This document shows, one piece after another, positions 816-21,090 of a DNA stretch of 35,704 nt (position 1 is the first letter of the stretch; the number at the start of each line of letters is the position of its first letter). The position numbers were made by a program, and so were the translations under genes. Source of the stretch: a virus. The stretch is taken from the IMG/VR virus record IMGVR_UViG_3300028025_005178, positions 1 through 35,704 of that record. The stretch is one strand, 5' to 3'. The notes beneath the pieces are model-generated. The model saw only the letters and a list, made by a program, of their open reading frames with translations, ran no database searches and was not told the origin of the DNA.

Positions 816-3530
816 TCACTTACCTGAGCGTGATGGTGATACTTGTACGGGGATTGGAATCATTGTTAGGGTCAACGCTGTTCCAGCAATCAGAACACGC
901 CTGGTACTCACTGGAATACTGGAGCCGAGCGGAATATATGTATCAACATTTCCTGCAGCAAAAATATTGATTTCCTCTTCAAATGCTTCCTTAACTTCTG
1001 TTGGGGCATCCTGTACGGCCTCAACTAGCGCAGCAGCCTCAGCATCCGAGATATCGTCAATCGGAACAGTGGCAAAAATTTCGGAAGCCTGGTCGCCCGT
1101 AATTGACTCCAACACCTCACCACTTGTAGCAATACTTACTGACTGCTCTTCAGAAAGGCCGTTCTCAATAATGGCGTCAACTGCAGCAACGACCTGCTCA
1201 TCGCTAACACTCTCGCCACCCAAGACATCAACCAACTCATCAAACGCTGCATCAGAAATCGGCTCATCCAAAATGGCATCAATAACAGAATCAAATGCTT
1301 CGTCGCTTAATGACTCTTCAAAGATAGTGTCAAGAACTTCGGCAAATGCCTCATCACTGATGTCGGCGGTAAATACCTGGTCCACGACAGCGGCAATTTC
1401 TTCATCTGACAAATCTTCGGCGAATACAGTACTTACGAGTTCGGCAAGCGCCTCGTCAGACAAGTCTTGACTAAAAACCTCATCAATGACTGCAATAAAT
1501 TTCTCTGTGTCAAGGTCTGATGTTAGGAGTTCAGTAGCAACACTGACTAGTTCCTCTTCCGACTCTGTTGCAGCCAATGCTTCACCAACAGCGTCCCCCA
1601 GTTCTTCTGGGGATGGGTCATCTGCCAGAATGTCATCAACGACTTGTTCTGATGTTTCTTCTTCTACCGGTAATTCCGGTGTTGTATCTGGCGTTTCTTC
1701 TTCTGGGGCTGATTCAGGTACGGTTGTTTCGGGTGACGTTGTGTCTTCGGAATTTCCGGTTCCTCCATCAGTGCCTCCATCAGTAGTATCTGGGGTTGTA
1801 TCTATTGTATCTTCTGGCTCTGTATCGGGAGGAAAAGTAACTGGAAGTTCAGTTGTTGTTGGTTCTTCCGTTTCTAGCACTTCCGTTGTTGTGGTAGTTG
1901 GAGACTCGGTTGTTGTGGTAGGAACTTCCGTCGTGGTCGTAGTCGAAACTTCAGTTGTCGTTGTTGTAGGGACTTCGGTTGTGGTTGTTGTGGGTGCTTC
2001 TGTTGTGGTAGTGGTTGGAGGGGGTGGGACGATATTGCTTGATTGAATGAATGGTGTGCCCTCGCTTGAAGGGGTTGCAATTAGATTCAGATTTGTAGAA
2101 CCGTCCCACTGGGAATAGGTGACCCATGTTCCATTTTCATCCCAAATATTATTTGAAATTGTTGATGCTGATTGATTCCTTTGGCCGTTGTTCCAGCCGT
2201 CATATAAGTTGATGGCAATCGTATTCCCCGTAAAGGTATTCCCATTAATTATTCGGTTATCTGTCCCCATATTCCAACCAAAAGGAATCCATGCTGAATG
2301 ATAAATGGCAGTTCCGTTATTGGTAAATACAGAATTAATAATTTGTGTTCTATTTAATCCAGTAACATTAGCGCCAGTTCCTGAGTTATTGGTAAATGTA
2401 GAGTCAATAACTTTTGTGAATCTATAGTTATAGATGCCATGGGTATTATTTTCAAAAGTGCCACGAGTTACATAAGTGCGGTTCTGGAAGATAGAATCAT
2501 CTGTAGTCGACCACGAGGTAAGCCCAGCATCCAATTGAGGCGTGGAGCCATAATCGCCAGCAATTCCTATTGATAGAGAATCCCACGTAGAATCCGTATA
2601 GTAGGCAATGGCACCGCCGTTATTGTTAAAGACTGCACTACCACCAGTCATACTCGTGAAACGAACATTATTGGCCGTGACAGTCCCACGATTATTGTAG
2701 ATAAGACCACCATTGGCATTTTGTCCACGCTTCAACGTCAAGTCGCTGACTGTTAAAGAAATATTATTATTCACATTAAAGATGCGGAATTGACTATCAC
2801 CATCAATGACTGTCGAAGTTTTTCCGCTTCCGACAATAGTTACATTTTGTGTGATGTTTGGAAGTGCGCTAGCAAGCGTGATAGTCCCTGCGGGAATTTG
2901 AATTGAGTCATAGATTCCACCAGATGTACCATTTGCTTGGGTTATTGCCCAACGTAGCGTTCCAACAGAGCCATCATCTAGAAAACTCGTAACCACTAGT
3001 GATGTCGGTTGCGTAACTACTGTTAGCGATGCGTTCCTAATTGCTGGCCCATAACATCCAGCCCAAAATAGTGAATCTTTACCAGCAAATGTGATTGTGA
3101 CAACTTCATCGTTTTGTGTTGTGGTTACCCCTAAATTGGACACCTGATTTGTACCTGCGGTTAGCACCCCTGTTGTTGCAGACTCATTTGAGTCGGAAAC
3201 CGTCGCACTATATGTCCCGCCCCATGGACCATTCGCAAGAAATGAAAGTTCTAGTGCTGATGGAGACGGAATAGTGACTTGCTGAGATACAGAATTCTGA
3301 ATATAACTAAAAGTGAGTTGCGATTGACCATCCCAAACTCCAAGACTAGGAACTCCATTGGAGCAAGAACTGCCCCCACTCGCTCCACTCCAGCCACCAC
3401 CGTTGGCTGAAAAATCACCATTTACCAATAGGTTTTCAGATGTAGCAAGAACTCCGGCAGGTGCGAACCAGCCGAATAATGCGACAACCCAAAATATCCA
3501 TTGCCCTTTGCGGGCGCCCCTTTTTCTCAT
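816..3530 (-). CDS. Secreted host-like surface protein: beta-helix, Thr/Pro/Glu linker, acidic repeats, C-terminal hydrophobic anchor
   Basis: 904 residues. A positively charged start and hydrophobic core (about 1-29, ending AGVLATS) form a signal peptide, rare among phage structural proteins. Residues about 33-172 resemble a jelly-roll binding module (opens NLLVNGDFS). Residues about 178-500 start with a CSLREAI-like motif (GSVGTLRWAITQANG) and continue as Asn-rich parallel beta-helix rungs. Residues 501-610 are a mucin-like linker of TTTTTE units. Residues about 627-850 hold acidic helical repeats built on SDEAFAEVLDTIF-type units. The end (about 851-904) has a YIPLGSSIPVSTRR motif and a hydrophobic stretch, IAGTALTLTMIPI. 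This architecture resembles cell-surface proteins of planktonic actinobacteria rather than a virion part. It lies directly before the lysis genes. A -10-like TATAAT occurs upstream; the ribosome site is weak (GGTG). Likely role: displayed on the infected cell, for example surface change or superinfection exclusion (inference). A virion adhesin is the alternative. Confidence 0.75.
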   Translation of the reverse strand: MRKRGARKGQWIFWVVALFGWFAPAGVLATSENLLVNGDFSANGGGWSGASGGSSCSNGVPSLGVWDGQSQLTFSYIQNSVSQQVTIPSPSALELSFLANGPWGGTYSATVSDSNESATTGVLTAGTNQVSNLGVTTTQNDEVVTITFAGKDSLFWAGCYGPAIRNASLTVVTQPTSLVVTSFLDDGSVGTLRWAITQANGTSGGIYDSIQIPAGTITLASALPNITQNVTIVGSGKTSTVIDGDSQFRIFNVNNNISLTVSDLTLKRGQNANGGLIYNNRGTVTANNVRFTSMTGGSAVFNNNGGAIAYYTDSTWDSLSIGIAGDYGSTPQLDAGLTSWSTTDDSIFQNRTYVTRGTFENNTHGIYNYRFTKVIDSTFTNNSGTGANVTGLNRTQIINSVFTNNGTAIYHSAWIPFGWNMGTDNRIINGNTFTGNTIAINLYDGWNNGQRNQSASTISNNIWDENGTWVTYSQWDGSTNLNLIATPSSEGTPFIQSSNIVPPPPTTTTTEAPTTTTTEVPTTTTTEVSTTTTTEVPTTTTESPTTTTTEVLETEEPTTTELPVTFPPDTEPEDTIDTTPDTTDGGTDGGTGNSEDTTSPETTVPESAPEEETPDTTPELPVEEETSEQVVDDILADDPSPEELGDAVGEALAATESEEELVSVATELLTSDLDTEKFIAVIDEVFSQDLSDEALAELVSTVFAEDLSDEEIAAVVDQVFTADISDEAFAEVLDTIFEESLSDEAFDSVIDAILDEPISDAAFDELVDVLGGESVSDEQVVAAVDAIIENGLSEEQSVSIATSGEVLESITGDQASEIFATVPIDDISDAEAAALVEAVQDAPTEVKEAFEEEINIFAAGNVDTYIPLGSSIPVSTRRVLIAGTALTLTMIPIPVQVSPSRSGK

Positions 3531-7391: not shown

Positions 7392-7684
7392 ACGAAATGT
7401 TTTATAATTGAAGCAGTCGCCAAGGTAACCCAGGCAACGTTAAACAAAATGATAGTTGGTAGTGTTTTCTTTGTCGATGACCAAATCAAGCAAACGCTGG
7501 AAATGATGGCGAAAATATACACCCACCACCACTGCTTGTCAAAAAGAAGGCCGGGGAAAATGATGGCAATTTTTGTTGCAAAACCCCATGCCTCAACAAT
7601 ATTGGGTCGATTCCAATATTCTTTTTTAGACATTGTTTTAACAGCATCAAGTATTTTCTGATTAAATTGAATGATTTTATTCAT
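7388..7684 (-). CDS. Small membrane protein, three predicted helices
   Basis: 98 residues. A polar N-terminus (about 1-30) precedes three hydrophobic segments at about 33-48, 52-68 and 74-93, separated by KQWWW and SSTKKT. It overlaps both neighbours by 4 bases (ATGA), so it is translationally coupled within the island. I do not recognise the family. It could anchor the adjacent glycosyltransferase or its lipid-linked donor at the membrane, or move a small molecule. A second holin is less likely, because it lies far from the lysis genes and has a long soluble N-terminus. Confidence 0.6.
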   Translation of the reverse strand: MNKIIQFNQKILDAVKTMSKKEYWNRPNIVEAWGFATKIAIIFPGLLFDKQWWWVYIFAIISSVCLIWSSTKKTLPTIILFNVAWVTLATASIIKHFV

Positions 7685-8304
7685 GTGCCTTTGATTCCAT
7701 TCTTTTTCTGATACTCATGTCTAGCACGGGCAACTTCATGCAAGTGGGACGGACCCTTGGTAAAATACCAATGTTCTGGTTCGGCAAAATGAAAGAAAAT
7801 CATTTGCACTTCATTGTTTGCTGGGTCAGGGAAACTTTCGCGCCAATGGTATTGGTCCTCACCGTAATAACAAACTGCCTGATTTGGTTCTGGCAACATT
7901 TTTTGTTCTTCAACATGGATGGGCCACTGTGTTTTATATGAAACACACAAATCCATCGTATATGTACAGGCATTATCATCAACATGGTATGGGAGTTGAG
8001 CCCTAAAACCACGATAGGTAACCCATAGACAGTAAGTAGGTTTTAATGTTGGAGTGAATGTAGACCGGGCTTTATCTAATAAAATTTGATGATATTCCGG
8101 AAGTGGCGATTCAATTTTATCCATACTATTTATGCCAAATCTACCCAAAGATGGCTCATAGGAAATAACTTTGGTTTCTTGCAGTAAAGATAAATCTTCA
8201 TTCAATTTACTAAATACAGATGGCTCAAAAACTTCATCAACAATGAATGCTGGAGGTCTTTTATATAAAGTCCGATTCGTTATCGGGTCATAATAGGTGT
8301 TCAT
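7681..8304 (-). CDS. Divergent 2OG-Fe(II) oxygenase-like protein
   Basis: I place the start at the ATG at 8302-8304 (207 residues, MNTYYDPITN). A TTG start at 8328 would lengthen the overlap with the previous gene to 41 bases, and GGGAAG sits upstream of this ATG. Residues 107-109 (HVD) match the HxD iron motif of 2-oxoglutarate oxygenases. H153 in YHWRESF is a likely third ligand and R155 a possible 2OG contact. The spacing and surrounding strands (TYTMDLCVSY, AVCYYG, VQMIFFHF) suit a double-stranded beta-helix. The usual Lys/Arg ten residues after the distal His is not clear, so this member is divergent. It directly follows a prolyl-4-hydroxylase-like gene and precedes the membrane protein. 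Confidence 0.6.
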   Translation of the reverse strand: MNTYYDPITNRTLYKRPPAFIVDEVFEPSVFSKLNEDLSLLQETKVISYEPSLGRFGINSMDKIESPLPEYHQILLDKARSTFTPTLKPTYCLWVTYRGFRAQLPYHVDDNACTYTMDLCVSYKTQWPIHVEEQKMLPEPNQAVCYYGEDQYHWRESFPDPANNEVQMIFFHFAEPEHWYFTKGPSHLHEVARARHEYQKKNGIKGT

Positions 8305-8974
8305 TACCCAAAGACTTCCCGTCATCAATCATGTCAAGAGGTTGATTTTCGCTATTTTCTAATATAAATGTACTAACAATCCATTTATCATTTGAAATTG
8401 GCACACACCCTTGATGCGGATGTGTCCAATACGCAGGAAATAACGCTATTGACCCTGCTTTAGCGGGTACATAAATGTCTTGTTCGCGAAAATATGTTTC
8501 CCCACCAACTTCGACGTCATTGAGATAAACGACAGCGCCGAGAACACGATTCAAGATAACAACAGGAACCGGCCCGCCGTCAATATGCTCTCTGTAAAAG
8601 CCTTCACCACGGATGTATCTTTGCATGCGAAATCCCGTATCACAAATGCCCACCCAGTCCCAGAGCCACCTGAATTGTTCACGATAATATCCAACAGAAG
8701 TAAAGATAGCCTTTGAAAGTTCCATTTCATATGTAGACAATGGCTCTGGTGGAATGTTGTTATTTATTAGATTCTCTTTTGACCAACTGAAATCCATTGT
8801 ACTTTTAACATTAGCCATCACACCACTGATGACTGGGCCCGGTATAAACAGTCTCTCATAATATTTTGAAGATTCATCAATAATTGAAGAACATAATTCT
8901 TTGCTTAAAATATTTTCAGCAACCATAATGGCTGAAGATTTCCCTGCAGGCCAAGAAAATTGGATGGTCATCAT
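8288..8974 (-). CDS. Prolyl-4-hydroxylase-like 2OG-Fe(II) oxygenase (copy A)
   Basis: 228 residues. The C-terminal half carries the full P4Hc signature: FRMQRYIRGEGF, then HID (H130, D132), VVYLNDVEVGGETYF, PAKAGSIALFP, a distal His in THPHQG (H185 or H187) and K197 (DKWIVSTF) for 2-oxoglutarate. These enzymes hydroxylate proline or other residues using O2, Fe(II) and 2-oxoglutarate. A paralogous oxygenase is encoded at 12594-13184. Both follow closely behind a tiny protein of one family (79 and 82 residues), so the tiny protein plus oxygenase unit seems duplicated. The substrate is not visible; the collagen-like fibre of the same phage is an attractive candidate (inference). Confidence 0.85.
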   Translation of the reverse strand: MMTIQFSWPAGKSSAIMVAENILSKELCSSIIDESSKYYERLFIPGPVISGVMANVKSTMDFSWSKENLINNNIPPEPLSTYEMELSKAIFTSVGYYREQFRWLWDWVGICDTGFRMQRYIRGEGFYREHIDGGPVPVVILNRVLGAVVYLNDVEVGGETYFREQDIYVPAKAGSIALFPAYWTHPHQGCVPISNDKWIVSTFILENSENQPLDMIDDGKSLGNEHLL

Positions 8975-8986
8975 AGACCTTTCAGT

Positions 8987-9226
8987 TTAATTTTGAGATA
9001 AAAACTTTTCGTAGACATTAAGAATGTCTCGTAGGTGAAGTTGGGCGGTGTCACTGTAGGCGGCATTTGAAAAATCTGGTTGCCAAGTAAAAGAGCCATC
9101 AACTAACTCTAGGTCATCGGGGTCCACTCCTGCAAGTAGGACGGCGGTAAACAATTCTGTTTCTAAACGGCGGCGTGCAGTCTCTCTAGCAATAATTTTT
9201 TGGTTTTCTGTAATATTGAATTCCAT
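8987..9226 (-). CDS. Tiny acidic protein preceding oxygenase copy A
   Basis: 79 residues. It has an N-terminal basic helix (TARRRLETELFTAVLLAG), a DPDDLELVDG turn and a C-terminal helix (LRDILNVYEKFL). It aligns with the 82-residue protein at 13186-13434: LETELFTAVLLAGVDPDDLE vs FKEQLFGSMVAAGLDPDLVD. Each lies immediately upstream of a P4H-like oxygenase. The ribosome site GAGG precedes the ATG. No known domain was recognised. It may be an adaptor or substrate-recognition partner, or even the peptide substrate of the enzyme (inference from the repeated pairing). Confidence 0.6.
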   Translation of the reverse strand: MEFNITENQKIIARETARRRLETELFTAVLLAGVDPDDLELVDGSFTWQPDFSNAAYSDTAQLHLRDILNVYEKFLSQN

Positions 9227-9235
9227 ATTAGAACC

Positions 9236-10051
9236 TCAGTCATCTCGTCTCATTATTTTATCAATAAATGTTTTCTTTTGCGTGGCCAACTCGGAATCAA
9301 CATCTCTTTGCATTTTTTTGTATTTACTTTTTTGTCTTTTAGGCATAAAGCCACCGCCGAATCCTCTATGTTTCAGAAGATTATAGGCATTTGTATCGCC
9401 CCATAATAGTTCGGATTCTTTAGTTCTCTTGAATGGAATTACGTGCCACATAGGGCGTCCTATTTCAAGTTCAAAAGGCTCATTAGTTAATACATTAATC
9501 ACCATATGCGCATTATGATAATAATCCGTATTAACTACCGCAGGTAGCATCGTATAATTTGGGTTAGGGTCCCAAAGCGGAGGGAGAAATAAAGAGGACC
9601 AACCTGGAGGGGTTTTTATTAACCAAGGGTTAATGACTTTAATGTAGTTCGATTCTTGGAGTTTTCGTGCTCTCGTAACAGGACATTCGCCTGTTTGTGA
9701 ATACATGAAACTTTCAATACCAAAGTCTCCTAAATCAGTAACTAAATCAAATCTAGCATCCCAGTTTTTCCCATTTAAAGATGGACGAATCATCAACTTT
9801 GCCCACAGGGGGATAGTGAAACCTGTTGCAAGATAATCTGAAGTACCAGAACATCTCTTAAGGCTCCCATCGGAACCACTCAATTCTTTCCACCACTCAG
9901 GCCAATTCCCAGCATTGGTATATGGACGACATGAATCATCCATTAAATTAGGGTCAACGCAAGAAAGAAATACTTGATTTTTCTTTAATTTTGGTAAATC
10001 ATAAAAAATGTCTGGTTTAACTATTTGCAGTTTTTCTGAGCGCTTCCGCAT
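9236..10051 (-). CDS. DUF6065-like protein of unknown function
   Basis: I prefer the ATG at 10049-10051 (271 residues, MRKRSEKLQIVKPDIF). A GTG at 10117 would overlap the halogenase gene by 101 bases and has no ribosome site. The middle and C-terminal parts contain KTPPGWSSLFLPPLWDPNP, then AVVNTDYYHNAHMVINVLTN and EIGRPMWHVIPFKR. This order (PPG.S.LF.PP, VV(N/D)TD.Y, G.P..(Q/H)(V/I)IPFKR) matches an uncharacterised beta-rich family that I recall as DUF6065, found in bacteria and large phages. The last 40 residues are Lys/Arg rich (KRQKSKYKKMQR). It overlaps the halogenase gene and probably works with it. Its reaction is unknown. Confidence 0.6.
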   Translation of the reverse strand: MRKRSEKLQIVKPDIFYDLPKLKKNQVFLSCVDPNLMDDSCRPYTNAGNWPEWWKELSGSDGSLKRCSGTSDYLATGFTIPLWAKLMIRPSLNGKNWDARFDLVTDLGDFGIESFMYSQTGECPVTRARKLQESNYIKVINPWLIKTPPGWSSLFLPPLWDPNPNYTMLPAVVNTDYYHNAHMVINVLTNEPFELEIGRPMWHVIPFKRTKESELLWGDTNAYNLLKHRGFGGGFMPKRQKSKYKKMQRDVDSELATQKKTFIDKIMRRDD

Positions 10052-11492
10052 GGTCCACCAATTTCTGGTTAATGAGTTCCGATGATATTTGTGAAATATT
10101 CTTTCTAGAAGATTCACGGGAATTGTATGCTTCTAATTGTATTGATGCAACTTCTTTATTAAGCACTCCCTGACCTTGGGCTACGTGCCATAAATGTGCT
10201 GGACCGAATAGTTCAAATCCCGTTGAAGGTATGTCATGATGTTCTGGACATCTGGTATTCCATAGTTCAAGCAGATGCTGCAGTAATGGTGGTTTTTCTG
10301 CTTTTTGCTGTTCCGCCCACATCGGAGTGTCATTTCTGTCTGAAATATAGTGAAGTGAAATCATGCAAAGAATATTTTCCATAATAGAATCCATGACACG
10401 ATGATATTCTTTAATCCCATATGTTCTTTCACGCGATAATGTTGGAAGATATGAGCAAATAAGGCGAGCCTGCTGAATTGTAGTAGAAATTGATGTTGCT
10501 TCAAGCGGTTCAACAAACCCTGCAGCCAATCCAACTGCAACACAATTATTTTTCCATGTGGTTTTAAAATATCCTGACTTAAAATCAAGCGTTTTTGCTG
10601 GCTCTACTTCAAATCCATGAATTTCCGAAGCCTCTTTAATTGCTTCATCTACCGAGCAAAAGTCTGAAGAAAAAACATAACCGTTACCGCGGCGTTTTTG
10701 GGTTGGAATTTCCCACATCCAACCATTTTTTAATGCTCTCGCACGTGTGTATGGGCGTATCTGGCCTGATGGGTCAGATGGTGTTGGGAAAGCGATTGCG
10801 CTATCGCACGGAAGATATTTGCGATATGAAACAAAATCATTTTCAGAAATTTTGCTCAATATTTCACGACTAAATCCTGTTGCGTCAATAAAAAAGTCGC
10901 CGTCAATAACATCTTCAGAAGAATTAATTTTTATGTGCTGAATAAAGCCATATTCATCGACGCTAACATCATTTACGTCTGCGTCAATAAAATGAATTTT
11001 TCTTTCTTTTCCAATTTTAGTTAAATATCCGTTTAATTTGAAAGTATCAAAATGATATTGGTTTGTTCCAAAGTGCGTTTTATCTCCAGAATCAATGATT
11101 TTATTATCCACCAAACCACGCCAAGAAAAAGTACTTGTTAACGGCCAGCCATTTTCTAATGCATGTGCGTAGCCGCCCCAAAATGTTCCCGCACTTAAGC
11201 CCGTTCCACCAACACTATGGAAATAGTCTGGTGTGTGATTCGTCCAGTTTTCGTATCTAATCCCATATTTGTGCGTAATGTCAGCATGTTTAATCATTTC
11301 GTGAACATCTATACCAATAGCATCTTGGAAATGGCGCCAATGTTCTGTTGAACCTTCACCTACACCTACGATGCCTTTTTTACTAGAAGAAACAACAGTG
11401 ACTTCATAATTTTTGAAGTAATTTTTGATAATAAGTGCTGTGACGAGCCCTGCAGTACCAGAACCAATGACTACTATTTTTTTTCGGTTCAT
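10017..11492 (-). CDS. Flavin-dependent tryptophan-halogenase-family protein
   Basis: 491 residues, close to the usual 500-540. Residues 6-20 (IVVIGSGTAGLVTAL) are the FAD-binding GxGxxG motif. The halogenase signature WxWxIP is present as WMWEIP at 258-263. K75 in THKYGIRYENW sits where the catalytic lysine (K79 of PrnA) is expected, and E331 in FVEPLEATSI matches the active-site glutamate region. FIDATGFSR (201-209) is another FAD-binding segment. These enzymes use FADH2, O2 and halide to chlorinate or brominate tryptophan, free or in peptides and natural products. No partner flavin reductase is seen here, so the host would supply FADH2. It overlaps the upstream Rossmann-like gene by 4 bases. 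Such genes have been reported in some T4-like cyanophages, but the phage substrate is not known to me. Confidence 0.85.
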   Translation of the reverse strand: MNRKKIVVIGSGTAGLVTALIIKNYFKNYEVTVVSSSKKGIVGVGEGSTEHWRHFQDAIGIDVHEMIKHADITHKYGIRYENWTNHTPDYFHSVGGTGLSAGTFWGGYAHALENGWPLTSTFSWRGLVDNKIIDSGDKTHFGTNQYHFDTFKLNGYLTKIGKERKIHFIDADVNDVSVDEYGFIQHIKINSSEDVIDGDFFIDATGFSREILSKISENDFVSYRKYLPCDSAIAFPTPSDPSGQIRPYTRARALKNGWMWEIPTQKRRGNGYVFSSDFCSVDEAIKEASEIHGFEVEPAKTLDFKSGYFKTTWKNNCVAVGLAAGFVEPLEATSISTTIQQARLICSYLPTLSRERTYGIKEYHRVMDSIMENILCMISLHYISDRNDTPMWAEQQKAEKPPLLQHLLELWNTRCPEHHDIPSTGFELFGPAHLWHVAQGQGVLNKEVASIQLEAYNSRESSRKNISQISSELINQKLVDHAEALRKTANS

Positions 11493-12184
11493 TTTTTGAC
11501 CACAAATGTGAAACCTGTTGCTACGGGAATATGAAATAGGTATTTGTCATCATCTTCAGCGAGGCGCGACAAATACTGGAAATAGGGGTGCTTATTCTTT
11601 AATGAGTACAGTGAACCAAAGTCATTGACAATATTGAGAATCATCAAAGCACCCGAAGGCAGTTTGGCCCATACATTGTCAATGATTAAAAAATCATGAC
11701 TAACCATTTCGACATCAATGAGTGCCAAATCGTAATCTTCGTCAATGTCCCCATTAACAAAATTCTCCATAGAGATTACTTTTTCTTCCGGCAGAATAGT
11801 ATTCGTATATTTTTCCATATAATCAACACTCATGGTGTTCACATAATGAACCGTCGGAACAATATCGCCAAGCGTTGACGCTAGAATATAATTCATCCCA
11901 TAAAAAATAACTTTTGATGGGTTTTTAATTCGTACAGCAATTTCCACAATAGAGCGCGTCAATACTTCAATGTCCATGGCAGAACTAGATGCATCACTAA
12001 TTTGGTCTAGCCAATTTAGTTGGACTGAATAGCCAATTGCTGAACGATTTCTGTCAACGTCAGTCGCTATTTCGGACTGCAAGAACTGCGCATTGCTCGC
12101 AACAATGGCTGCCTTATCAATGTCCGAAGAAACAGTATGTGAAAGCAAGTTAGCCATTTGGAAAACACTATAATTATCATTCAT
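11489..12184 (-). CDS. Rossmann-like protein, possibly a degenerate SAM-dependent methyltransferase
   Basis: 231 residues. The central order resembles a class I methyltransferase: a strand and loop VIFYGMNYILASTLGDIVP (about 92-110), a second strand VHYVNTMSVDYME, then DYDLALIDVEM (motif IV-like), SGALMILNIVND and a C-terminal FHIPVATGFTFVVKK. The glycine-rich motif I (GxGxG) is missing, replaced by YGMNYILAS, so SAM binding is doubtful. The N-terminal 90 residues look helical. It overlaps the gene before it by 8 bases and the halogenase by 4. It may be an inactive or divergent transferase helping the halogenase reaction. The assignment is tentative. Confidence 0.45.
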   Translation of the reverse strand: MNDNYSVFQMANLLSHTVSSDIDKAAIVASNAQFLQSEIATDVDRNRSAIGYSVQLNWLDQISDASSSAMDIEVLTRSIVEIAVRIKNPSKVIFYGMNYILASTLGDIVPTVHYVNTMSVDYMEKYTNTILPEEKVISMENFVNGDIDEDYDLALIDVEMVSHDFLIIDNVWAKLPSGALMILNIVNDFGSLYSLKNKHPYFQYLSRLAEDDDKYLFHIPVATGFTFVVKK

Positions 12185-12446: not shown

Positions 12447-12597
12447 TGTTTTTATCCTCAATCACAAAAACTATAGGCTGGTCAAGCATTGCGCAGGAAA
12501 CAATACTTTCGTCATTTTCTTTATATCGGCCTGTAGTTAAATCAAAATTAGCATCAATAATTTGTTCAACATTGGATTCTTCAGGTTCTGGTGTCAT
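12436..12597 (-). CDS. Tiny acidic protein, 53 residues
   Basis: The frame from the ATG at 12595-12597 to the TAA at 12436-12438 encodes 53 residues: MTPEPEESNVEQIIDANF, then a middle YKENDESIVSCAMLDQPIVF and an end VIEDKNNGL. The ATG overlaps the TGA of oxygenase copy B (ATGA), the same coupling used elsewhere in the operon, and the gene fills what would otherwise be a 147-base gap. The protein is strongly acidic with one cysteine. No family was recognised. It could be a peptide substrate or partner of a neighbouring enzyme (inference). Confidence 0.55.
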   Translation of the reverse strand: MTPEPEESNVEQIIDANFDLTTGRYKENDESIVSCAMLDQPIVFVIEDKNNGL

Positions 12598-13184
12598 TGG
12601 AACCACGTCACTAAAGAATATTTAACAGTGTCGTCCTTTTCCCCCACAGGTTCAGCAATATGCAAATACGGGTAATTAGAAGGGAACATAATAACGCTTC
12701 CTGCTCTTGGTTCAATATTTACATTAAAACGAGGGAATACAAGATTACCGCCAGTAAAATCGTCGTTCAGAAAAGCAACGAGACTCAAACTACGTGAATT
12801 ATTTCTGAAATGGTCATGATGAGCATGATACTCGGCACCACCGCCATACTTAAGTACACGGTACCCCTCATCCATTTCTAAGTCCAACTCAAAAACATGC
12901 CTGTAATCCCAAACAATTGGGTCAATCTTTTCCCAAATTTTTTGCCACTCAGAAGCAAGTGGCATAACTCTCTCAATAGAAATTTCATTAGAACCAAGAG
13001 GCATCAATTCGCACCCCATTGATGTTCTTGTATTAGAAATTTGTCCTTCGCCAGTGGCAGACTTTTCCCATCGTACATATCCCCAATCCTGAGAACATTC
13101 CTCTTCTAAGAGTTCAATAAAATTCCCAGCATCAAAAATATTGTCGTATTGGCAAATGCCAACGGCATGTTCTTTAAATTTCAT
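12594..13184 (-). CDS. Prolyl-4-hydroxylase-like 2OG-Fe(II) oxygenase (copy B)
   Basis: The ATG at 13182-13184 is taken as the start (196 residues), one base after the previous stop; a TTG at 13217 would overlap that gene by 32 bases. The C-terminal half shows YRVLKYGGGAEYHAHHDHF with HxD ligands H122 and D124. It continues with SLVAFLNDDFTGGNLVFP, PRAGSVIMFPSNYPYLH with distal H175, and K188 in VKYSLVTWF for 2-oxoglutarate. All catalytic residues are present. It resembles copy A in fold and in its upstream tiny protein, but sequence identity looks low. Likely hydroxylates a protein or small-molecule substrate made by the phage or host. Confidence 0.85.
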   Translation of the reverse strand: MKFKEHAVGICQYDNIFDAGNFIELLEEECSQDWGYVRWEKSATGEGQISNTRTSMGCELMPLGSNEISIERVMPLASEWQKIWEKIDPIVWDYRHVFELDLEMDEGYRVLKYGGGAEYHAHHDHFRNNSRSLSLVAFLNDDFTGGNLVFPRFNVNIEPRAGSVIMFPSNYPYLHIAEPVGEKDDTVKYSLVTWFQ

Positions 13185-13185
13185 G

Positions 13186-13434
13186 TCATCCAACGATTCT
13201 TTCGCGGATTTCCTCAATTTTTTCTAATGCCTCCAGAGTGCGGGTAATTTGTTCCCGCCAACCAGAGTTTTCTTCAGAAATGTCTGTTTCTGGATTAAAA
13301 GTTTCCATATCAACCAAATCTGGGTCTAATCCTGCAGCGACCATACTTCCAAACAACTGTTCCTTGAAACCTGCTGCTCGTACTTCAATCGCTTGCAATT
13401 TGCGTTCATTTGTTAAAGAATCAAAAAAACTCAT
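13186..13434 (-). CDS. Tiny acidic protein preceding oxygenase copy B
   Basis: 82 residues, paralogous to the 79-residue protein at 8987-9226. Shared features are an N-terminal basic helix, a LF..(V/L).AG(L/V)DPD core, an acidic F-containing middle, and a C-terminal helix (ITRTLEALEKIEEIRERI). A strong ribosome site (AAAGGAG) precedes the ATG, better than those of its neighbours, so it may be made in larger amounts. It ends one base before oxygenase copy B. The function is unknown; the paired arrangement suggests a partner of the enzyme. Confidence 0.65.
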   Translation of the reverse strand: MSFFDSLTNERKLQAIEVRAAGFKEQLFGSMVAAGLDPDLVDMETFNPETDISEENSGWREQITRTLEALEKIEEIRERIVG

Positions 13435-13436
13435 TG

Positions 13437-13883
13437 TTATCTCCTTTGTCCATCGTGTACCATAACTTCATTCTTGCATATTTCTATGTCGTCGCGCATG
13501 GTTATGACAATATATTTTCCTGATTTAAGAAATCTATGTTTGACGACAACGCGATGTTCTTCTATTACTTCTGGAGCCATCTCGCCTACAACTCGCACAA
13601 TATAATCATCATTATCTATTTCTACGAGACGAAACTTAACTTCTTTACATGACTCAAAATCATCAACAAAAATAAAAACAAAAAGTTCATTTGTGCCAAT
13701 TTGAGGACTGTAGTCCACGTATTTTTCAATTGGGATAGAAAGCAAAGTCACTTGAGAATCATCAAAATCTAAAGTTTCTGTTCTTTGGGAATGCCCATTT
13801 AGTATTGGGAGCATCCATGAACGAGCAAGTTTTGACGCTTCTTCAATCATTGATTCATCTGGGCAAAAAACTACGCGGTCCAC
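13437..13883 (-). CDS. Unknown protein, first gene of the enzyme island
   Basis: 148 residues from a GTG that overlaps the TAG of the His-rich protein gene by one base. No good ribosome site is visible, so it probably depends on coupled translation. The N-terminal 30 residues look helical (ESMIEEASKLARSWMLPIL). The rest alternates strands and acidic turns (NELFVFIFVDDF, VKFRLVEIDNDDYIVRVVGEM, HRVVVKHRFLKSGKYIVITM), consistent with a single small beta domain. Composition is acidic and unlike the Gly/Ser/Thr-rich fibre proteins upstream. No family was recognised. An ATG at codon 12 is a possible later start. Confidence 0.55.
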   Translation of the reverse strand: MDRVVFCPDESMIEEASKLARSWMLPILNGHSQRTETLDFDDSQVTLLSIPIEKYVDYSPQIGTNELFVFIFVDDFESCKEVKFRLVEIDNDDYIVRVVGEMAPEVIEEHRVVVKHRFLKSGKYIVITMRDDIEICKNEVMVHDGQRR

Positions 13884-15628
13884 TAAATATCGATTGCTTT
13901 CGTATATGGGAAGTTGCTGTGGCTCATCTGTGTGTTGGCTGTTCCGGCGTTGCGTGCAATGATGATAACACCACCATCGCTACCTGTGACACCGGTCCCA
14001 CCAGCATTTGCTGTTCCTGCTGTTCCCCCCGCACCAGCAGCGCCACCAGGTCCACCAGGCCAGTTCGGATGTGGGGTTGCGGATGGGTTGGCTAGGGCGT
14101 TAGAGCCGGTGAGTCCAGCATTGTGGTTCGCTGCAGGAAACGTGAAGTATCCAGCGTTATGGAATGATGGATGTGCCGTTGAGTTGGATGAATAATATAT
14201 GTAGGCTGGGTTTGCTGGGGATGTCCATGGCCCAGCATTAGCAGGTGAGGTTCCTGCTGGTTGAGTATGTGAGCCAGAGTTATGTCCTGTGTTTCCGGCA
14301 TGATGTCCGTGCCCGGAGTTGTGATTTCCTCCGTGATGTGATGCTGGGTGGGCGTGATGTCCGTGTCCAGAGTTGTGATTTCCACCATGATGACCAGCGG
14401 GGTGATGATGATATCCGTGCCCAGCATTATGATTTTTGCTTGGGTTTGCGGTACCGTTATGATTACTAAAACCGCGAGAACCATTTGCGGCGTGCGAGCC
14501 GTGGGTATTTCCTGCGCCATGATGAGTTGCATTGGATGTTGCATTATGATTCGACCAATAAACATGCGTATTAGGGTTGTGAGCACTATGGTGACTACCT
14601 GCGGCCTGGTGCGTAGCATTCGACGTGGCGTTATGGTTTGAAAAGTTGTGCGAGTTAGGGTTGTGTGCGCCCGTGGCAGCGTTACTGTATGGGGTAGCCG
14701 AATGTGGTGCAATTGTGAGAAAACTATCCGAGGGATGATGGAATGTTCCTTGGTTATGAGATGCGGGAGCCACAGTTCCTGTCGTATGTCCATACACTGG
14801 TGCGCTACCAGCGGGGTGGGGATGGTTTCCAGAAGGGTGTCCTCCGGCGTTATGGCTCGCAGGACGTGTTGGTGCGGTTGTTCCTACACTACCAGCAGAA
14901 CCAGGATTTCCGGAAGTAGCAGGGTTTCCGGACGAACCTGCAAGCCCCCTACTTAAAATTGAACCAGACCCAGCCACAGTTTTAGCAACAATGACAACTA
15001 GTCCACCACCAAGACCGCCCGCACCACCAGTTCCCGCAGTAGCCGCATTACCAGAACTTCCAGAACTTCCAGAGTTTCCAATACCGCCAGCCTGACCTGC
15101 GGTCGCTCCAGGGAAAATACCTAGAGGGCCAGCGCTACCAGCACCACCAGCACCACCAGTGCCAGCATTGGCACTAATTGTTCCAGCATTGCCCGTGGCC
15201 CCAAGTGAGCCTGAACCAATTTTCGTTCTTGTGCCATCCGCGGTAATAAACCATCCCGCCATTGCGTCATCTAAGTCATTCAACGCCGTACTACTAATAG
15301 CACCAGTACTTGCTCCCCATGCGTTTGCTGGGTTCAAAGAACTTTGGCGCCCTGCGATAGTTCCACTTCCATCAGAAACGTTTGCTGAGGTAGCAGCAGG
15401 GAAACCTATTGTTCCATTATTGGTTAAGGTGTCTTTGACGAAAACACGAAAACCGTTGGTAAATAGTGTTGCCCCAGAGTTGACAGTTAGTGACGAGTAG
15501 TACATATCTCTGGTCATGTGCGTGACTGTAGGGCTAGTAATAGTGACAGAACCATCTTGGCCATTACCAAAAATGGAATCTCCACCGGTCCTCTGAACTA
15601 AGGATTTATTTAGTCGTCTGATTCCCAT
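13883..15628 (-). CDS. Glycine-rich tail protein with a long histidine-rich insert
   Basis: Start at the ATG at 15626-15628 (581 residues, MGIRRLNKSL) with AGGTGG upstream; a longer frame from 15700 would overlap the previous gene by 71 bases. The N-terminal domain (TRDMYYSSLTV, NGFRVFVKDTLTNNGTIG) is paralogous to the 256-residue protein upstream. A Gly/Ser/Ala region follows (GGAGGLGGGLVVIVAK). Residues about 258-519 hold roughly 47 histidines in HN, HH, HGH and HNxGH contexts, with a tandem HHGGNHNSGHGHHA unit. The protein returns to a Gly-rich end (GGPGGAAGAGGTAG, DGGVIIIARNAG). Gly-rich phage adhesins of the gp38 type pack polyglycine helices with variable loops; the His region may bind metal ions or be an extended loop. 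Virion adhesin or tip is the likely role. Confidence 0.7.
   Translation of the reverse strand: MGIRRLNKSLVQRTGGDSIFGNGQDGSVTITSPTVTHMTRDMYYSSLTVNSGATLFTNGFRVFVKDTLTNNGTIGFPAATSANVSDGSGTIAGRQSSLNPANAWGASTGAISSTALNDLDDAMAGWFITADGTRTKIGSGSLGATGNAGTISANAGTGGAGGAGSAGPLGIFPGATAGQAGGIGNSGSSGSSGNAATAGTGGAGGLGGGLVVIVAKTVAGSGSILSRGLAGSSGNPATSGNPGSAGSVGTTAPTRPASHNAGGHPSGNHPHPAGSAPVYGHTTGTVAPASHNQGTFHHPSDSFLTIAPHSATPYSNAATGAHNPNSHNFSNHNATSNATHQAAGSHHSAHNPNTHVYWSNHNATSNATHHGAGNTHGSHAANGSRGFSNHNGTANPSKNHNAGHGYHHHPAGHHGGNHNSGHGHHAHPASHHGGNHNSGHGHHAGNTGHNSGSHTQPAGTSPANAGPWTSPANPAYIYYSSNSTAHPSFHNAGYFTFPAANHNAGLTGSNALANPSATPHPNWPGGPGGAAGAGGTAGTANAGGTGVTGSDGGVIIIARNAGTANTQMSHSNFPYTKAIDI
14072..14857 (-). repeat. 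Histidine/asparagine/glycine-rich low-complexity coding repeat
   Basis: This stretch encodes about 262 residues with roughly 47 histidines in short recurring units. It includes a tandem copy of HHGGNHNSGHGHHA (about 14296-14391) and repeated SNHNATSNATH units (about 14505-14650). The plus strand shows imperfect recurring GTGATGTCCGTG and CAGAGTTGTGATT motifs. It interrupts an otherwise Gly-rich adhesin whose shorter paralogue lacks it. Confidence 0.75.
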
Positions 15629-15629
15629 T

Positions 15630-16400
15630 TTACGCCACCTGAGAATATATAAATGTTCCCGAAGCACACCCAGTGCCACCTGTGCCATCATATGAAACAC
15701 CTGCGTTTAGTGTTGAAGCCGATGAGATGACTATCATCACACCCCCACCACCTCCACCAGCGCCAGCAGTTCCAGGCGCTTTGATATATCCAGTACCGCT
15801 AGTTACAGTAATATATCTTGCGGCAAGAATCACTACCCCGCCCCCTGCTCCAGAAGCGCCCCCTGCTCCACCACGCAAAAATGTTGGCGTTGTTGATGTT
15901 CCAGTGATTGAGTAGCCGCGAACTGATTGAAACGGCTGGTAGTAATAGTTTGTTCCACCCGTTGCTGCAGTTGGTGCGGTCGCAGTCTGTGTTGCGCTTG
16001 ACCCACCAAGACTATGAGTAACCGCAGTTGCGGTAGCGCCACCCTGCTGTATTGACCCAGCAGTAGAAAAACCAGTCGTGTATCCAATGGTTGAAGCATT
16101 ACCCAGCGTCAGTATATTTTGGACAAAGATGCGGTATCCGCCTGGATTGAGTCGAACGCTATCCGAAAGTGTGAGGTTATAGAAAAATAGGTCCCTTGTT
16201 GCAGTGTAAACAGAAGATGAGGGAGCCATACTGAGAATAGTAGTCGTGCCATCAAGTGTCTGGGTGCCATCAACGGCAGAACCATATATGGGGTCTGGGG
16301 CGTCAAGAAATGCAGTTAAGTTGGAGTTCGCTTTTGACGTTGTTGATGGTCCAGAGGCAACGCTCAGGCCACCTCCATTCGTAAAAATGAACTTACCCAT
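15630..16400 (-). CDS. Glycine-rich tail protein, paralogue of the following gene
   Basis: 256 residues. The middle (TRDLFFYNLTLSDSVRLN, GGYRIFVQNILTLGNASTIG) aligns with TRDMYYSSLTV and NGFRVFVKDTLTNNGTIG of the next protein. Then come Gly-rich segments (RGGAGGASGAGGGVVILAA, GAGGGGGGVMIVISS) and a short tail with one cysteine (GCASGTFIYSQVA). The match pattern suggests a beta-helix-like or polyglycine-sandwich fibre protein. The ribosome site AAGGAT precedes the ATG. The following gene begins one base after this stop. It is probably a shorter version of the same adhesin, without the His-rich insert. Confidence 0.7.
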   Translation of the reverse strand: MGKFIFTNGGGLSVASGPSTTSKANSNLTAFLDAPDPIYGSAVDGTQTLDGTTTILSMAPSSSVYTATRDLFFYNLTLSDSVRLNPGGYRIFVQNILTLGNASTIGYTTGFSTAGSIQQGGATATAVTHSLGGSSATQTATAPTAATGGTNYYYQPFQSVRGYSITGTSTTPTFLRGGAGGASGAGGGVVILAARYITVTSGTGYIKAPGTAGAGGGGGGVMIVISSASTLNAGVSYDGTGGTGCASGTFIYSQVA

Positions 16401-16986: not shown

Positions 16987-19900
16987 TCAATTTGTGTAGC
17001 CGTAAAGTTTCCAAGAACCTGAAATTGTTGTGGCGCTTGCTCCAAGACGGAAGTTGGAGAATGCAATTCCGTTATAGGAACTTAGTCCGCTATGTATTAA
17101 TGTCCCAGTGTAATTGCCGAACGTTGAGGCATTATGCGAACTAATAGTTGTGGTATCGGCAAGAAATGGTCTGCATATTTCTAGAGCAACATGACCGTCG
17201 GAAAATGCAATTGTGCCGACGACTCCGAGTGTCGAATTCGCACCAACATAGTTGTCTGTGGAACCGCCATAAGTCAAACCATTCATTGCATAGTAGTAAC
17301 CAGCCCCTGCAGGAGTACTACCAGATAGTAAATCAACAAAGAATAAGTAAAGATTGGCACTTGCTCCTTGAAGGTTGGAAATAACAAGTCTGTAGTTATC
17401 GTAAGTTGAACTAAATACCGATGTTATGTTTGCTGTTGTAACACCAGAGAACGTTCCACTATTCAAAAAGACAAGACCAACGTCGGCAGTTGTTGCGACA
17501 GTCCCTGCTTTGTTCGGTAGCGTCAATGTTCTATCTGCTGTAAGTGTTGTTGGCGTTAAAGTTACTTCATAAGTACTGGTTCCACCTGCACGACCAGCAA
17601 GCGCAACACCATCCTGGGTTGCCGCAGTACGCACTGTGGCAGTACCGATAACATCTAAAGTTGTTGCTGGGTTGATGGTCCCAATGCCTACACGATTATT
17701 ACTGGTATCAGTTTTGAAAGTACTTGTACCACTAGCAATGGAGCCAATAACGGTTAGTGTGCTTAGGTTTCCAACACTAGTAATTGCTGTTTGAGCAGCA
17801 CCAGTAACGGTTGCGGCAGTGCCTGACACGTTGCCTGTTACATTTCCCGTTAATGGACCAGAGAATCCCGCTGCCGTTAGTGTTGTTCCATTGAATGTTA
17901 AGTTGGCACTACCTGCTGCAGCATTGGTCCCATCTTTGTAAACAACTTGGTTGGCGCTTCCAGCAACAGGTCCGGTAGCACCTTGGGCTCCAGTTGCCCC
18001 TTGCGGACCTTGGGCTCCAGTTGAGCCTTGTGGACCTACATCTCCTTGCGGACCCTGCGCACCTGTAGAACCCTGCGGACCAGTTGCACCCTGAGCACCC
18101 TGGACTCCTTGCGCTCCAATGTCTCCTGTCCGGGCAAAGGTAACAATGATGCTTTCGTTGTTACTAAATGATGATGCCGAACCTGAAACATACGAACAAG
18201 AAACATCAAAGAAGCCTGTTTCTTCCGTAACAGCAGAAATGGTGAACACTGCAAAGTCTAAAGAATCGCCCTTATTGGAGATTCGGAAGTGGCCCTTGAT
18301 AGTGCTTGTTGAGTCGTCAATTGTTCTTAGGTACGACTGAATATCTGTTGAGTTTGCGTCAACGTCATCAATCTTAAGTTCTGTAGCAAGTGTTATGTCA
18401 GAGTTGCTGAACTTGAGTTTTCCAGCACCTGGGTCCGTATGTGCCGTATCGGTATTAAAGACGTACTCAAAAGTGACACCGCCAAAGTTTCCTTGCGCAC
18501 CTTGCGGTCCTGTGAAACCTTGTGTGCCTTGAGGTCCTTGTGCACCCGTGAATCCTTGAGTTCCTTGAGGTCCTGTAAAACCTTGAGTACCTTGTGGACC
18601 CGTGTCTCCTTGTGCTCCTTGAGCCCCCTGAGCACCTTGAGCACCAGTAAATCCCTGTGCTCCTTGTGCACCTTGTGAGCCTTGGGGGCCGGTATCTCCT
18701 TGCGCTCCAGTGAAACCCTGCGTCCCTTGTGGACCAGTAAAGCCTTGAGTACCTTGTGGACCAGTAAAGCCTTGAGTACCTTGTGGACCTGTGTCTCCCT
18801 GTGAGCCTTGAGAACCTTGGGCACCTTGAGCACCCTGGGAACCAGCAGTTCCTTGAGCACCCTGTGCTCCTTGTACTCCCTGCGGACCAGTAAAACCTTG
18901 CGCACCCTGCGAACCCTGCGGTCCAGTCTCCCCTTGTGCGCCCTGCGCCCCCTGTGAGCCTTGTGGGCCTGTATAACCCTGGGAACCTTGGGGACCGGCG
19001 AAACCCTGAGTTCCTTGGGGTCCTTGCGCACCCTGAGGTCCTGTATAACCCTGGGAACCTTGGGCACCCTGCGAACCCTGGGGACCAGTATCACCCTGCG
19101 AACCCTGTGGACCCGTGTCACCTTGCGAGCCTTCAGCACCCTGCGGGCCAGTATTGCCTTGGGTGCCTTGCGGACCGGTGGGACCCTGAATGCCCTGCGG
19201 TCCAGTAGGTCCTTGTGCACCAACATCACCTGTACGAGCAAAAGTAATAATGACATCAGCGTTGTCGCTAAAAGTCGTGACGGAACCAGATACATAACTA
19301 CAATTAACGTCAAAGTATCCTGTTTGTTCAGTTATTGAAGAGATAGTGAATAAAACAAAGTTTGCTGAATTAGTTTTTTCGGAAACTCTAAAGTGTCCTT
19401 TTATGGAACTTGTTGAATCATCGATTGTGCGTAAATATGACTGAATGTCTGTTGCATTGTCATCTTGGTCGTCGATGTAAAGAATTGTTGCTGAGGCAAA
19501 AATGCCATCATTGAATTTTAGTGTCCCTACTCCGGGGTCGGTTTGACTGGCATCTGTATCGAATGTATAGTCGAATGTGACACCACCAAAGTTTCCTTGG
19601 GCACCTTGCGCTCCAGTGAAACCCTGAGGACCCGTTGCGCCTTGTGCACCTTGTGAACCCTGGGGTCCTGTATCGCCCTGAGCGCCAGTGAAACCTTGAG
19701 TGCCTTGGGGGCCTGTAAAACCTTGTGTGCCTTGGGGGCCTGTAAATCCTTGTGCGCCCTGACTTCCTTGAGCACCTTGCGCTCCTTGTGGTCCAGTAGA
19801 ACCCTGCGCACCTTGAGGACCCGTAACCGTACTAGCCGCACCAACAGCGCCCTGTGGCCCAGTAGAACCCTGTGCACCTTGAGGACCCGTCAAGCCTGTA

Positions 19901-21090
19901 GCACCTGTCGGACCAGTTGCACCCGTAGCGCCAACGCCTGTAGTCATTAAAGCAGCAGAGAACCATGTTCCTTGACCAGCGCCACCCCATTGAAGGCTTC
20001 TTGATGCAGAGTCGCCGTTATATGCAGTGAAGTCTACATAGTCCGTAGTTCCATTAAGGTAGATAACCCTGCTTCCACCCTGTGAAGAACCTGAACCTGT
20101 TACTGTTTGATTTTGGAAGATAGCAGATGTGCTGCTATTTTTACGAATCTGAACATTGTATTGATTTGTTGTGACACCAGCAGCAGTCCACCATACTTGC
20201 AAGGCAATGTTGTAGTAACCAGCAATTGTTGGCGTGAACTGTTTAGAGGTTGCATTCCACCAGTTATTAGGGTCAATGTCATCTACAAAAGAAATAAGAA
20301 CATCATTGGTGTTGCTTGCAATTGACTGGTCGCCAGACAACTTTCCAACAACGACTGTATCTGTTGCAGAGATGTTTGCACTTGGTCCGATTGCTCCTTG
20401 GCTACCCGTCGCACCTTGAGGACCAACATCACCTTGCGGACCCTGAGGACCCGTAGAACCTTGTGCACCAGTAGTACCCTGTGCACCCGTAGCGCCTTGT
20501 GCCCCATTTGACCCCTGAGGACCAACATTACCTTGCGGACCTTGAGCGCCCACATCACCTTGCGGACCCTGAGGACCCGTAGAACCTTGTGCGCCCGTGG
20601 CTCCTTGTGAGCCAGTTGCACCTTGGCTTCCAGTTGCGCCTTGCGGTCCGACATCACCTTGAGGACCCTGTGGGCCAGTTGCACCCTGAGGACCAGTTGA
20701 ACCCTGAGCACCAGTTGGGCCTGTTGCTCCAGTCAGACCAGTTGCACCAGTTGCTCCCTGAGGTCCCTGAGTACCAACGACACTTGATGGGACGAACTTT
20801 GCCCCATCAAATTTCAAAACTTGGTCGGAGGTAGCCCCAGAAGTATCTACCTCAATGCCATCAATAAATAAAATCGGAACCTTTAGGGTGTCGTCAGTTT
20901 TGAGGACATTCGCTGCATCACGATATAGGTTTACGTCACCCGCAGCAGAACCGTCACCCCAAACGAGCCGTCCACCGCCCTGAACCTGCAATCTTGCATA
21001 AGTTTCGCCATCAAGAAAAATTGTTAAACCATCAGAGCCAGCAGAAGACAACTGCTTAATCGTGATTGGTGTTATAAATTTTTGAGCCAT
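16987..21090 (-). CDS. Collagen-like long tail fibre with C1q-like and duplicated inserted domains
   Basis: 1367 residues. The N-terminus ([11 protein letters not shown], about 1-105) is a virion-attachment region like that of the next fibre. Four collagen blocks of G-X-Y triplets, mainly [12 protein letters not shown] and GDT, occupy 106-236, 387-499, 622-868 and 991-1042. Between them lie a C1q/TNF-like jelly roll (237-386, [17 protein letters not shown]) and two copies of one beta domain (500-621 and 869-990, both with [16 protein letters not shown] and FARTGD(V/I)GAQG). After 1043 come NNRVGIGT and [12 protein letters not shown] fibre motifs, then a tip domain (1206-1367) ending [11 protein letters not shown]. 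Collagen blocks should form triple-helical stalks, and the tip probably binds the receptor. The ribosome site is GAGG. Pro occurs in the X position and Thr often in Y, so hydroxylation or glycosylation is conceivable. Confidence 0.85.
17965..20775 (-). repeat. Collagen-triplet DNA repeats with a duplicated internal domain
   Basis: Within the long fibre gene, collagen-coding repeats lie at about 20383-20775, 19594-19932, 18487-19227 and 17965-18120. They are built from 9-base-periodic units such as complements of GGACCTCAAGG and CAAGGTTTTACTGG. Two homologous non-collagen segments, about 19228-19593 and 18121-18486, encode the duplicated beta domain. Such DNA is prone to length change by recombination, and assembly of short reads across it may be unreliable. 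Confidence 0.75.

Follow-up and report, generated by a model that had tools for sequence, protein, structure and literature searches.

A phage flavin-dependent halogenase encoded beside tail-tip adhesins in a cassette shared with VirX1

Glycine-rich adhesins of the S16 kind end long tail fibres, and the halogenases of cyanophages have been listed for years as metabolic genes with an undemonstrated role. In S16, gp38 is a polyglycine-sandwich adhesin whose hypervariable segments between Gly-rich motifs at the fibre tip form the proposed receptor site (PMC6851490). MibH and SrpI are flavin halogenases that act on peptide Trp (PMC10858898), and the viral halogenase VirX1 accepts many small aromatic compounds in vitro and has a large, accessible active site (PMC8407142). 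Here we describe a halogenase gene on a stretch of 35,704 bases from an IMG/VR virus record, a fragment of a phage (the window), together with the tail-adhesin cassette in which it lies. As far as the searched literature shows, the place of the halogenase in such a cassette, which is shared with VirX1, is new; no paper tying phage halogenases to tail adhesins was found in this search, which had most subscription journals outside its scope.

The halogenase gene is located within a tail module in which every gene is encoded on the minus strand. The relevant features, in the order of transcription, are as follows:

16987 to 21090, minus strand: collagen-like tail fibre with GXY repeats, upstream of the adhesins
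15630 to 16400, minus strand: Gly-rich, His-poor adhesin with an architecture like that of the next gene, likely its paralogue
13883 to 15628, minus strand: tail-tip adhesin with a conserved N-terminal domain, a Gly-rich part, a hypervariable His/Asn-rich region and a conserved C-terminus (reading frame opening at 15700; likely start at 15628, as judged from relatives)
13437 to 13883, minus strand: 148-aa protein, recurring between the adhesin and 2OG oxygenase A
13186 to 13434, minus strand: 82-aa protein, recurrent in the cassette
12594 to 13217, minus strand: 2OG-Fe(II) oxygenase A (PF13640), H..D..H conserved in the family
11489 to 12184, minus strand: 231-aa protein of unassigned family, with a stop/start overlap with the halogenase gene
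10017 to 11492, minus strand: flavin-dependent halogenase, 491 aa, with GSGTAG, K75, WMWEIP, E331 and the substrate-side motif GVGEGSTEHW
9236 to 10051, minus strand: partner protein (phrog_7084) with a dUTPase-like fold
8987 to 9226, minus strand: 79-aa protein; in relatives, it shares a profile family with the protein of 13186 to 13434
8288 to 8974, minus strand: 2OG-Fe(II) oxygenase B (PF13640), H..D..H conserved in the family
7681 to 8328, minus strand: phrog_2954-like protein (PHROGs label 'ferrochelatase'), often accompanying the cassette

Transcription would thus proceed from the fibre via small proteins to the Gly-rich and the His/Asn-rich adhesin, two small proteins, oxygenase A, a 94-aa and the 231-aa protein, and on to the halogenase, its partner, the 79-aa protein, oxygenase B, the phrog_2954 protein, a small probable membrane protein and a glycosyltransferase. 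The start of the partner gene was placed from its relatives at the ATG at 10051, resulting in a 35-base overlap with the halogenase gene, while the listed reading frame opens with GTG at 10117. The collagen-like fibre lies upstream of both 2OG oxygenases, and hydroxylation of its proline or lysine residues is another possible task for these enzymes. Elsewhere in the window, a large tail protein (24047 to 27658) contains three repeats of a '...GGKIFITPST...WFLPSKDEL...' domain, which is also fused into the His-rich adhesins of loci L042 and L043, and a 904-aa protein (816 to 3530) with a likely signal peptide, a Thr-rich linker and a C-terminal hydrophobic segment resembles a bacterial surface protein.

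A first-pass annotation of the window had noted that flavin reductase and natural-product scaffold genes are absent, and neither was found here. Scanning a subset of the window genes against Pfam revealed no flavin reductase, and no PF01613 gene was found in nine related contigs of 118 to 203 kb, so FADH2 would be supplied by the host. As the window is a fragment, a lack of flavin reductase genes in the complete phage genome is probable rather than certain. The cassette contains no scaffold or pathway gene, and general annotation of the halogenase neighbours showed no RiPP precursor, leader or RiPP enzymes. The host may tentatively be regarded as an actinobacterium, because a contig of an Actinomycetota MAG was the sole match among bacterial species genomes and phages of Gordonia, Arthrobacter and Brevibacterium encode the nearest relatives of one baseplate protein; a search for the host phylum returned nothing beyond that contig.

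The halogenase reading frame starts with ATG and contains no internal stops. Its product matches PF04820 (Trp_halogenase) with 342.8 bits (cut-off 21) over residues 5 to 449 and profile positions 1 to 450 of 458, as well as phrog_2928 'tryptophan halogenase' (E 1.2e-101). The FAD motif (GxGxxG) reads GSGTAG at residues 10 to 15, the WxWxIP motif reads WMWEIP at residues 258 to 263, where W258 and P263 are the same in every one of the 46 sequences aligned, and E331 sits inside EPLEATS (residues 328 to 334). In an alignment with Trp halogenases of solved structure, K75 and E331 fall on the catalytic Lys and Glu, and neither residue varies among the 46 sequences, the window enzyme included. A structural model (pLDDT 92) reached Z 44 against both SttH and PyrH, superposing over about 480 residues (476 for SttH), and its top structural neighbours were PF04820 halogenases, not other monooxygenases; BrvH- and Xcc4156-type halogenases were also near in fold. 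Compared to its two nearest relatives, the gene shows dN values of 0.027 to 0.035 at a dS of about 0.70 (dN/dS about 0.04), indicating purifying selection. We therefore rejected a non-halogenating monooxygenase on account of the structural neighbours and a decayed gene on account of the dN/dS ratio. The profile match, the catalytic residues, the modelled fold and the selection pattern together argue for an intact and maintained gene. Judged from its sequence, the enzyme is a variant-A (tryptophan-halogenase-type) flavin-dependent halogenase of a known family, and its catalytic machinery is very probably intact. These results bear out the first-pass annotation, which had described a halogenase with intact signature residues and plausible activity, had proposed modelling against known halogenases and had taken a missing chloride site or tunnel lysine, or clustering with non-halogenating FAD monooxygenases, as counter-evidence; the lysine is present as K75, and the nearest neighbours in structure are halogenases. 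One relative (L025:10001-11254) keeps K75 and E331 and misses some 74 residues of the part that connects the catalytic Glu region to the C-terminus (about 379 to 452 of the window enzyme), which represents either a real deletion or an assembly error.

Two stretches of the enzyme deviate from well-known members of the family. The loop following GVGE reads GSTEHW, which is common to a large phage clade; the STEHW portion of this substrate-pocket loop differs from free-Trp halogenases, and PyrH-like enzymes vary there too. The halide-site stretch after the catalytic Glu is E-A-T-S vs. E-S-T-G in PyrH-type enzymes. This difference, together with the apparent freshwater setting of many relatives, would fit an enzyme using the halogenase fold for oxidation without stable halogenation, e.g. 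for hydroxylation, hypohalous-acid oxidation or cross-linking of adhesin side chains. We consider such a role highly unlikely, as K75, E331 and WMWEIP are kept in the clade, and the BrvH- and Xcc4156-type enzymes close in fold are known halogenases by their entries.

The gene directly following the halogenase codes for a putative dUTPase-fold protein, an assignment with weak but uniform profile support. Its model (pLDDT 79) adopts a dUTPase beta-barrel fold with Z up to 10 (Foldseek E 6e-4), dUTPases account for 19 of its 20 weak PDB profile hits, and a motif-3-like stretch (NTDYYH...G.P) was recognized by eye. One cyanophage homologue carries the annotation 'triphosphate nucleotidohydrolase'. 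Partner-like proteins are also encoded near Gly-rich adhesins in haloarchaeal tailed viruses (L239:8133-9002 and L240:6755-7636), where thymidylate synthase or ribonucleotide reductase genes are located nearby and the regions shown contain no halogenase.

The cassette is common to relatives of the halogenase from 95% down to about 39% identity. To avoid circularity, we searched with the adhesin rather than with the halogenase, counting unique adhesins with at least 3.5 kb of downstream sequence. Co-occurrence of the halogenase with the His-rich adhesin was near-obligate: the 61 unique adhesin loci contained the halogenase in 60 cases, the partner in 60 and a 2OG oxygenase in 59, although many loci share descent and these are not 60 independent events. 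The one locus that departs from this pattern, L116, encodes an adhesin that shares the N-terminal domain of the others yet lacks a His-rich region; its His content is only 0.7%, compared to 2.7 to 16% (median 7.7%) in the other unique adhesins, and the locus misses halogenase, partner and 2OG oxygenase alike. The His-poor negative control consists of L116 as a single locus and of two similar-looking adhesins from haloarchaeal viruses. Searching from L116 for further His-poor adhesins returned only L116 itself, window-type adhesins gave zero matches in the isolated-phage collection, and the adhesin profile found nothing in 150 bacterial genomes in a search run without a positive control.

The linkage is kept in inverted cassettes (L142 to L146) and where the cassette is displaced upstream of the adhesin (L136 and L159), and two phages (L117 and L119) each contain two complete tandem adhesin-halogenase-partner cassettes, every one with its own adhesin. 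Another protein could nevertheless be the substrate, namely the collagen-like fibre, an FN3 protein or a host surface protein modified on Trp or Tyr, with the adhesin as a mere neighbour. The tail module does contain the fibre and further tail proteins, and peptide-Trp halogenases such as MibH and SrpI exist (PMC10858898). However, duplicated and inverted cassettes retain no structural gene next to the halogenase other than the adhesin, and Gly-rich adhesins form a block between fibre and halogenase in several cyanophages, which makes this alternative quite unlikely. The genes between adhesin and halogenase vary: the 231-aa gene is absent or swapped for other genes in more distant relatives, and c23 and c24 vary as well. 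This variation could point to passive linkage, the region after the adhesin being a cargo island moved by modular exchange and the halogenase serving a function unrelated to the adhesin. Lysis-like and glycosyltransferase genes follow there too, and 2OG genes are common in phages. Since halogenase and partner stay constant while other cargo varies, and Gly-rich adhesins have gained halogenase neighbours from distant lineages, we regard mere hitchhiking as very unlikely. A functional link between the halogenase and the tail adhesin is well probable in our assessment.

Adhesin linkage is found in two or more deep lineages of halogenases: in the tree, the window clade and the VirX1 clade stand apart (each with 100/99 support), and both include tail-linked members. 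In other phage groups (L022, L050, L063, L076 and L079), a halogenase follows shortly after non-identical Gly-rich adhesin-like reading frames, accompanied by 2OG oxygenases; L063 combines three Gly-rich adhesins with three to four halogenases of different lineages. The marine phage contigs L063 (7105-13409) and L070 to L075 show three to four consecutive PF04820-like reading frames of different lineages, with many 2OG-like reading frames nearby. In isolated cyanophages, Gly-rich tail genes are followed by one or two halogenases, often the partner, and 2OG-type genes. This order was observed with the partner in Syn9, Syn10, S-CREM1, P-TIM40, S-RIM44 and Sf-FP1, and with no partner detected in S-WAM1, P-RSM6, S-SZBM1 and Sf-CH11. 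In Syn10, the halogenase is VirX1 itself (CPUG_00131), encoded after Gly-rich tail genes and ahead of a partner homologue. S-SRM01 bears a partial likeness, its halogenase lying between the tail fibre and an annotated gp37-gp38 adhesin tip. Piecewise scans of the whole Syn9 and S-RIM44 genomes placed only 4.8% and 6.4% of the reading frames, respectively, within 3 kb of a Gly-rich one, compared to four of the five halogenases of both phages. The cassette and its recurrence in cultured cyanophages, the VirX1 locus included, go beyond the first-pass annotation.

Several phage halogenases are encoded away from tail modules (P-SSM2, Syn1, S-PM2, S-MbCM6, S-SSM7 and S-B64), and at least these copies should therefore have a different role; in Campylobacter phage CP21, a distant halogenase is located near head and tail genes and, by annotation, not in such a cassette. 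The main rival explanation is that the enzyme is an auxiliary metabolic gene product with a small-molecule substrate (free Trp, an indole or a phenol), which it would halogenate in the course of infection, e.g. to yield an antimicrobial or to change the metabolism of the host; such a role has been proposed for PrnA of cyanophages. Antibiotic or metabolic chemistry is the published suggestion for cyanophage halogenases (PMC2984593, PMC9964418), some cyanophage copies are found among metabolic genes and tRNAs, the fold of the window enzyme is nearest to free-Trp halogenases, and the in vitro acceptance of small aromatics by VirX1 (PMC8407142) points in the same direction. The cassette has no scaffold or pathway gene, however, the near-obligate adhesin linkage persists through rearrangements, and a large share of the cyanophage copies, VirX1 among them, belongs to the tail-fibre module, so we judge a metabolic role to be unlikely for the window enzyme.

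Our best reading, which stands at an even chance, is that the halogenase is part of a post-translational modification cassette for the receptor-binding tail-tip adhesin. Aromatic adhesin side chains are proposed as the target because the corresponding loops of S16 form the proposed receptor site, halogenases acting on peptide Trp exist and the VirX1 active site is accessible. Because gene neighbourhood indicates association and not a substrate, direct halogenation of adhesin residues is something we infer, with the probabilities for and against in balance, as we do the adhesin as substrate, the modified residue, the halide and the effect of the modification. In the proposed course of events, the adhesins would be produced late in infection, and host flavin reductases would deliver FADH2 to the halogenase, which would generate hypohalous acid held by K75. 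A halogen would then be placed on an aromatic side chain within the hypervariable portion that the Gly-rich adhesin exposes, while the 2OG oxygenases would hydroxylate further residues, and the modification may tune receptor binding or stabilize the adhesin.

The first-pass annotation had left the substrate open between peptide-bound Trp in a phage or host protein and a host metabolite. The locking of the halogenase gene to tail adhesin genes now favours a phage protein, but peptide-bound Trp has lost ground as a general target and was rejected in this role: among the unique adhesins whose loci bear the halogenase, four are devoid of Trp, while all have at least 4 Tyr and at least 11 His. Trp is thus unlikely to be the general target, and from the residue composition His or Tyr would be the better fit and the more likely acceptor. 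We know of no flavin-dependent halogenation of protein-bound His. The adhesins contain few Lys and Arg residues, and fibre tips rich in His are able to bind metal. Because adhesin composition differs between groups, from the Trp- and Cys-rich adhesin tip of S-SRM01 (9 Trp, zero His) to the adhesins of L050 and L056 (no Trp, 4 His), no single target residue fits them all.

Extending this reading, a large part of the phage 'tryptophan halogenases', including VirX1, might work alongside 2OG oxygenases and a dUTPase-fold helper to halogenate the receptor-binding adhesin of their own phage, as a means of chemically diversifying host recognition; we give this generalization slightly less than an even chance. 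The adhesin linkage provides a specific, testable role for many phage halogenases, among them one of solved structure. If it is true, virions would bear halogenated and hydroxylated receptor-binding proteins as a new layer of phage host-range control, and such enzymes would represent natural tools to halogenate folded proteins.

VirX1 of Syn10 (PDB 6qgm) is among the closest described systems. This PF04820 viral halogenase shares the fold of the window enzyme (Z 36), and its gene likewise follows Gly-rich tail genes and directly precedes a partner homologue and 2OG-type genes. The motifs GVGESTLGHF and EPLESTGLL of VirX1 correspond to GVGEGSTEHW and EPLEATSI of the window enzyme at about 26% identity over the aligned part, and the window halogenase falls outside the VirX1 clade. 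The Trp 5/6/7-halogenases PyrH, SttH, PrnA and RebH match it in fold over nearly the full length (Z 39 to 44) and share the catalytic Lys and Glu and the W.W.IP motif; unlike these enzymes, it is associated with no natural-product pathway, carries an STEHW loop instead of an ATF-type one and is found in a phage tail context. The RiPP peptide halogenase MibH is also similar in fold (Z 40), but in contrast to MibH and SrpI, no RiPP precursor or leader is apparent here, and the putative target is a large structural adhesin. The partner resembles dUTPases in fold, but is larger (about 270 aa) and encoded in a tail cassette. The window adhesin, finally, is like S16 gp38 as far as the description of the architecture goes, but it is larger, His/Asn-rich and accompanied by modifying enzymes.
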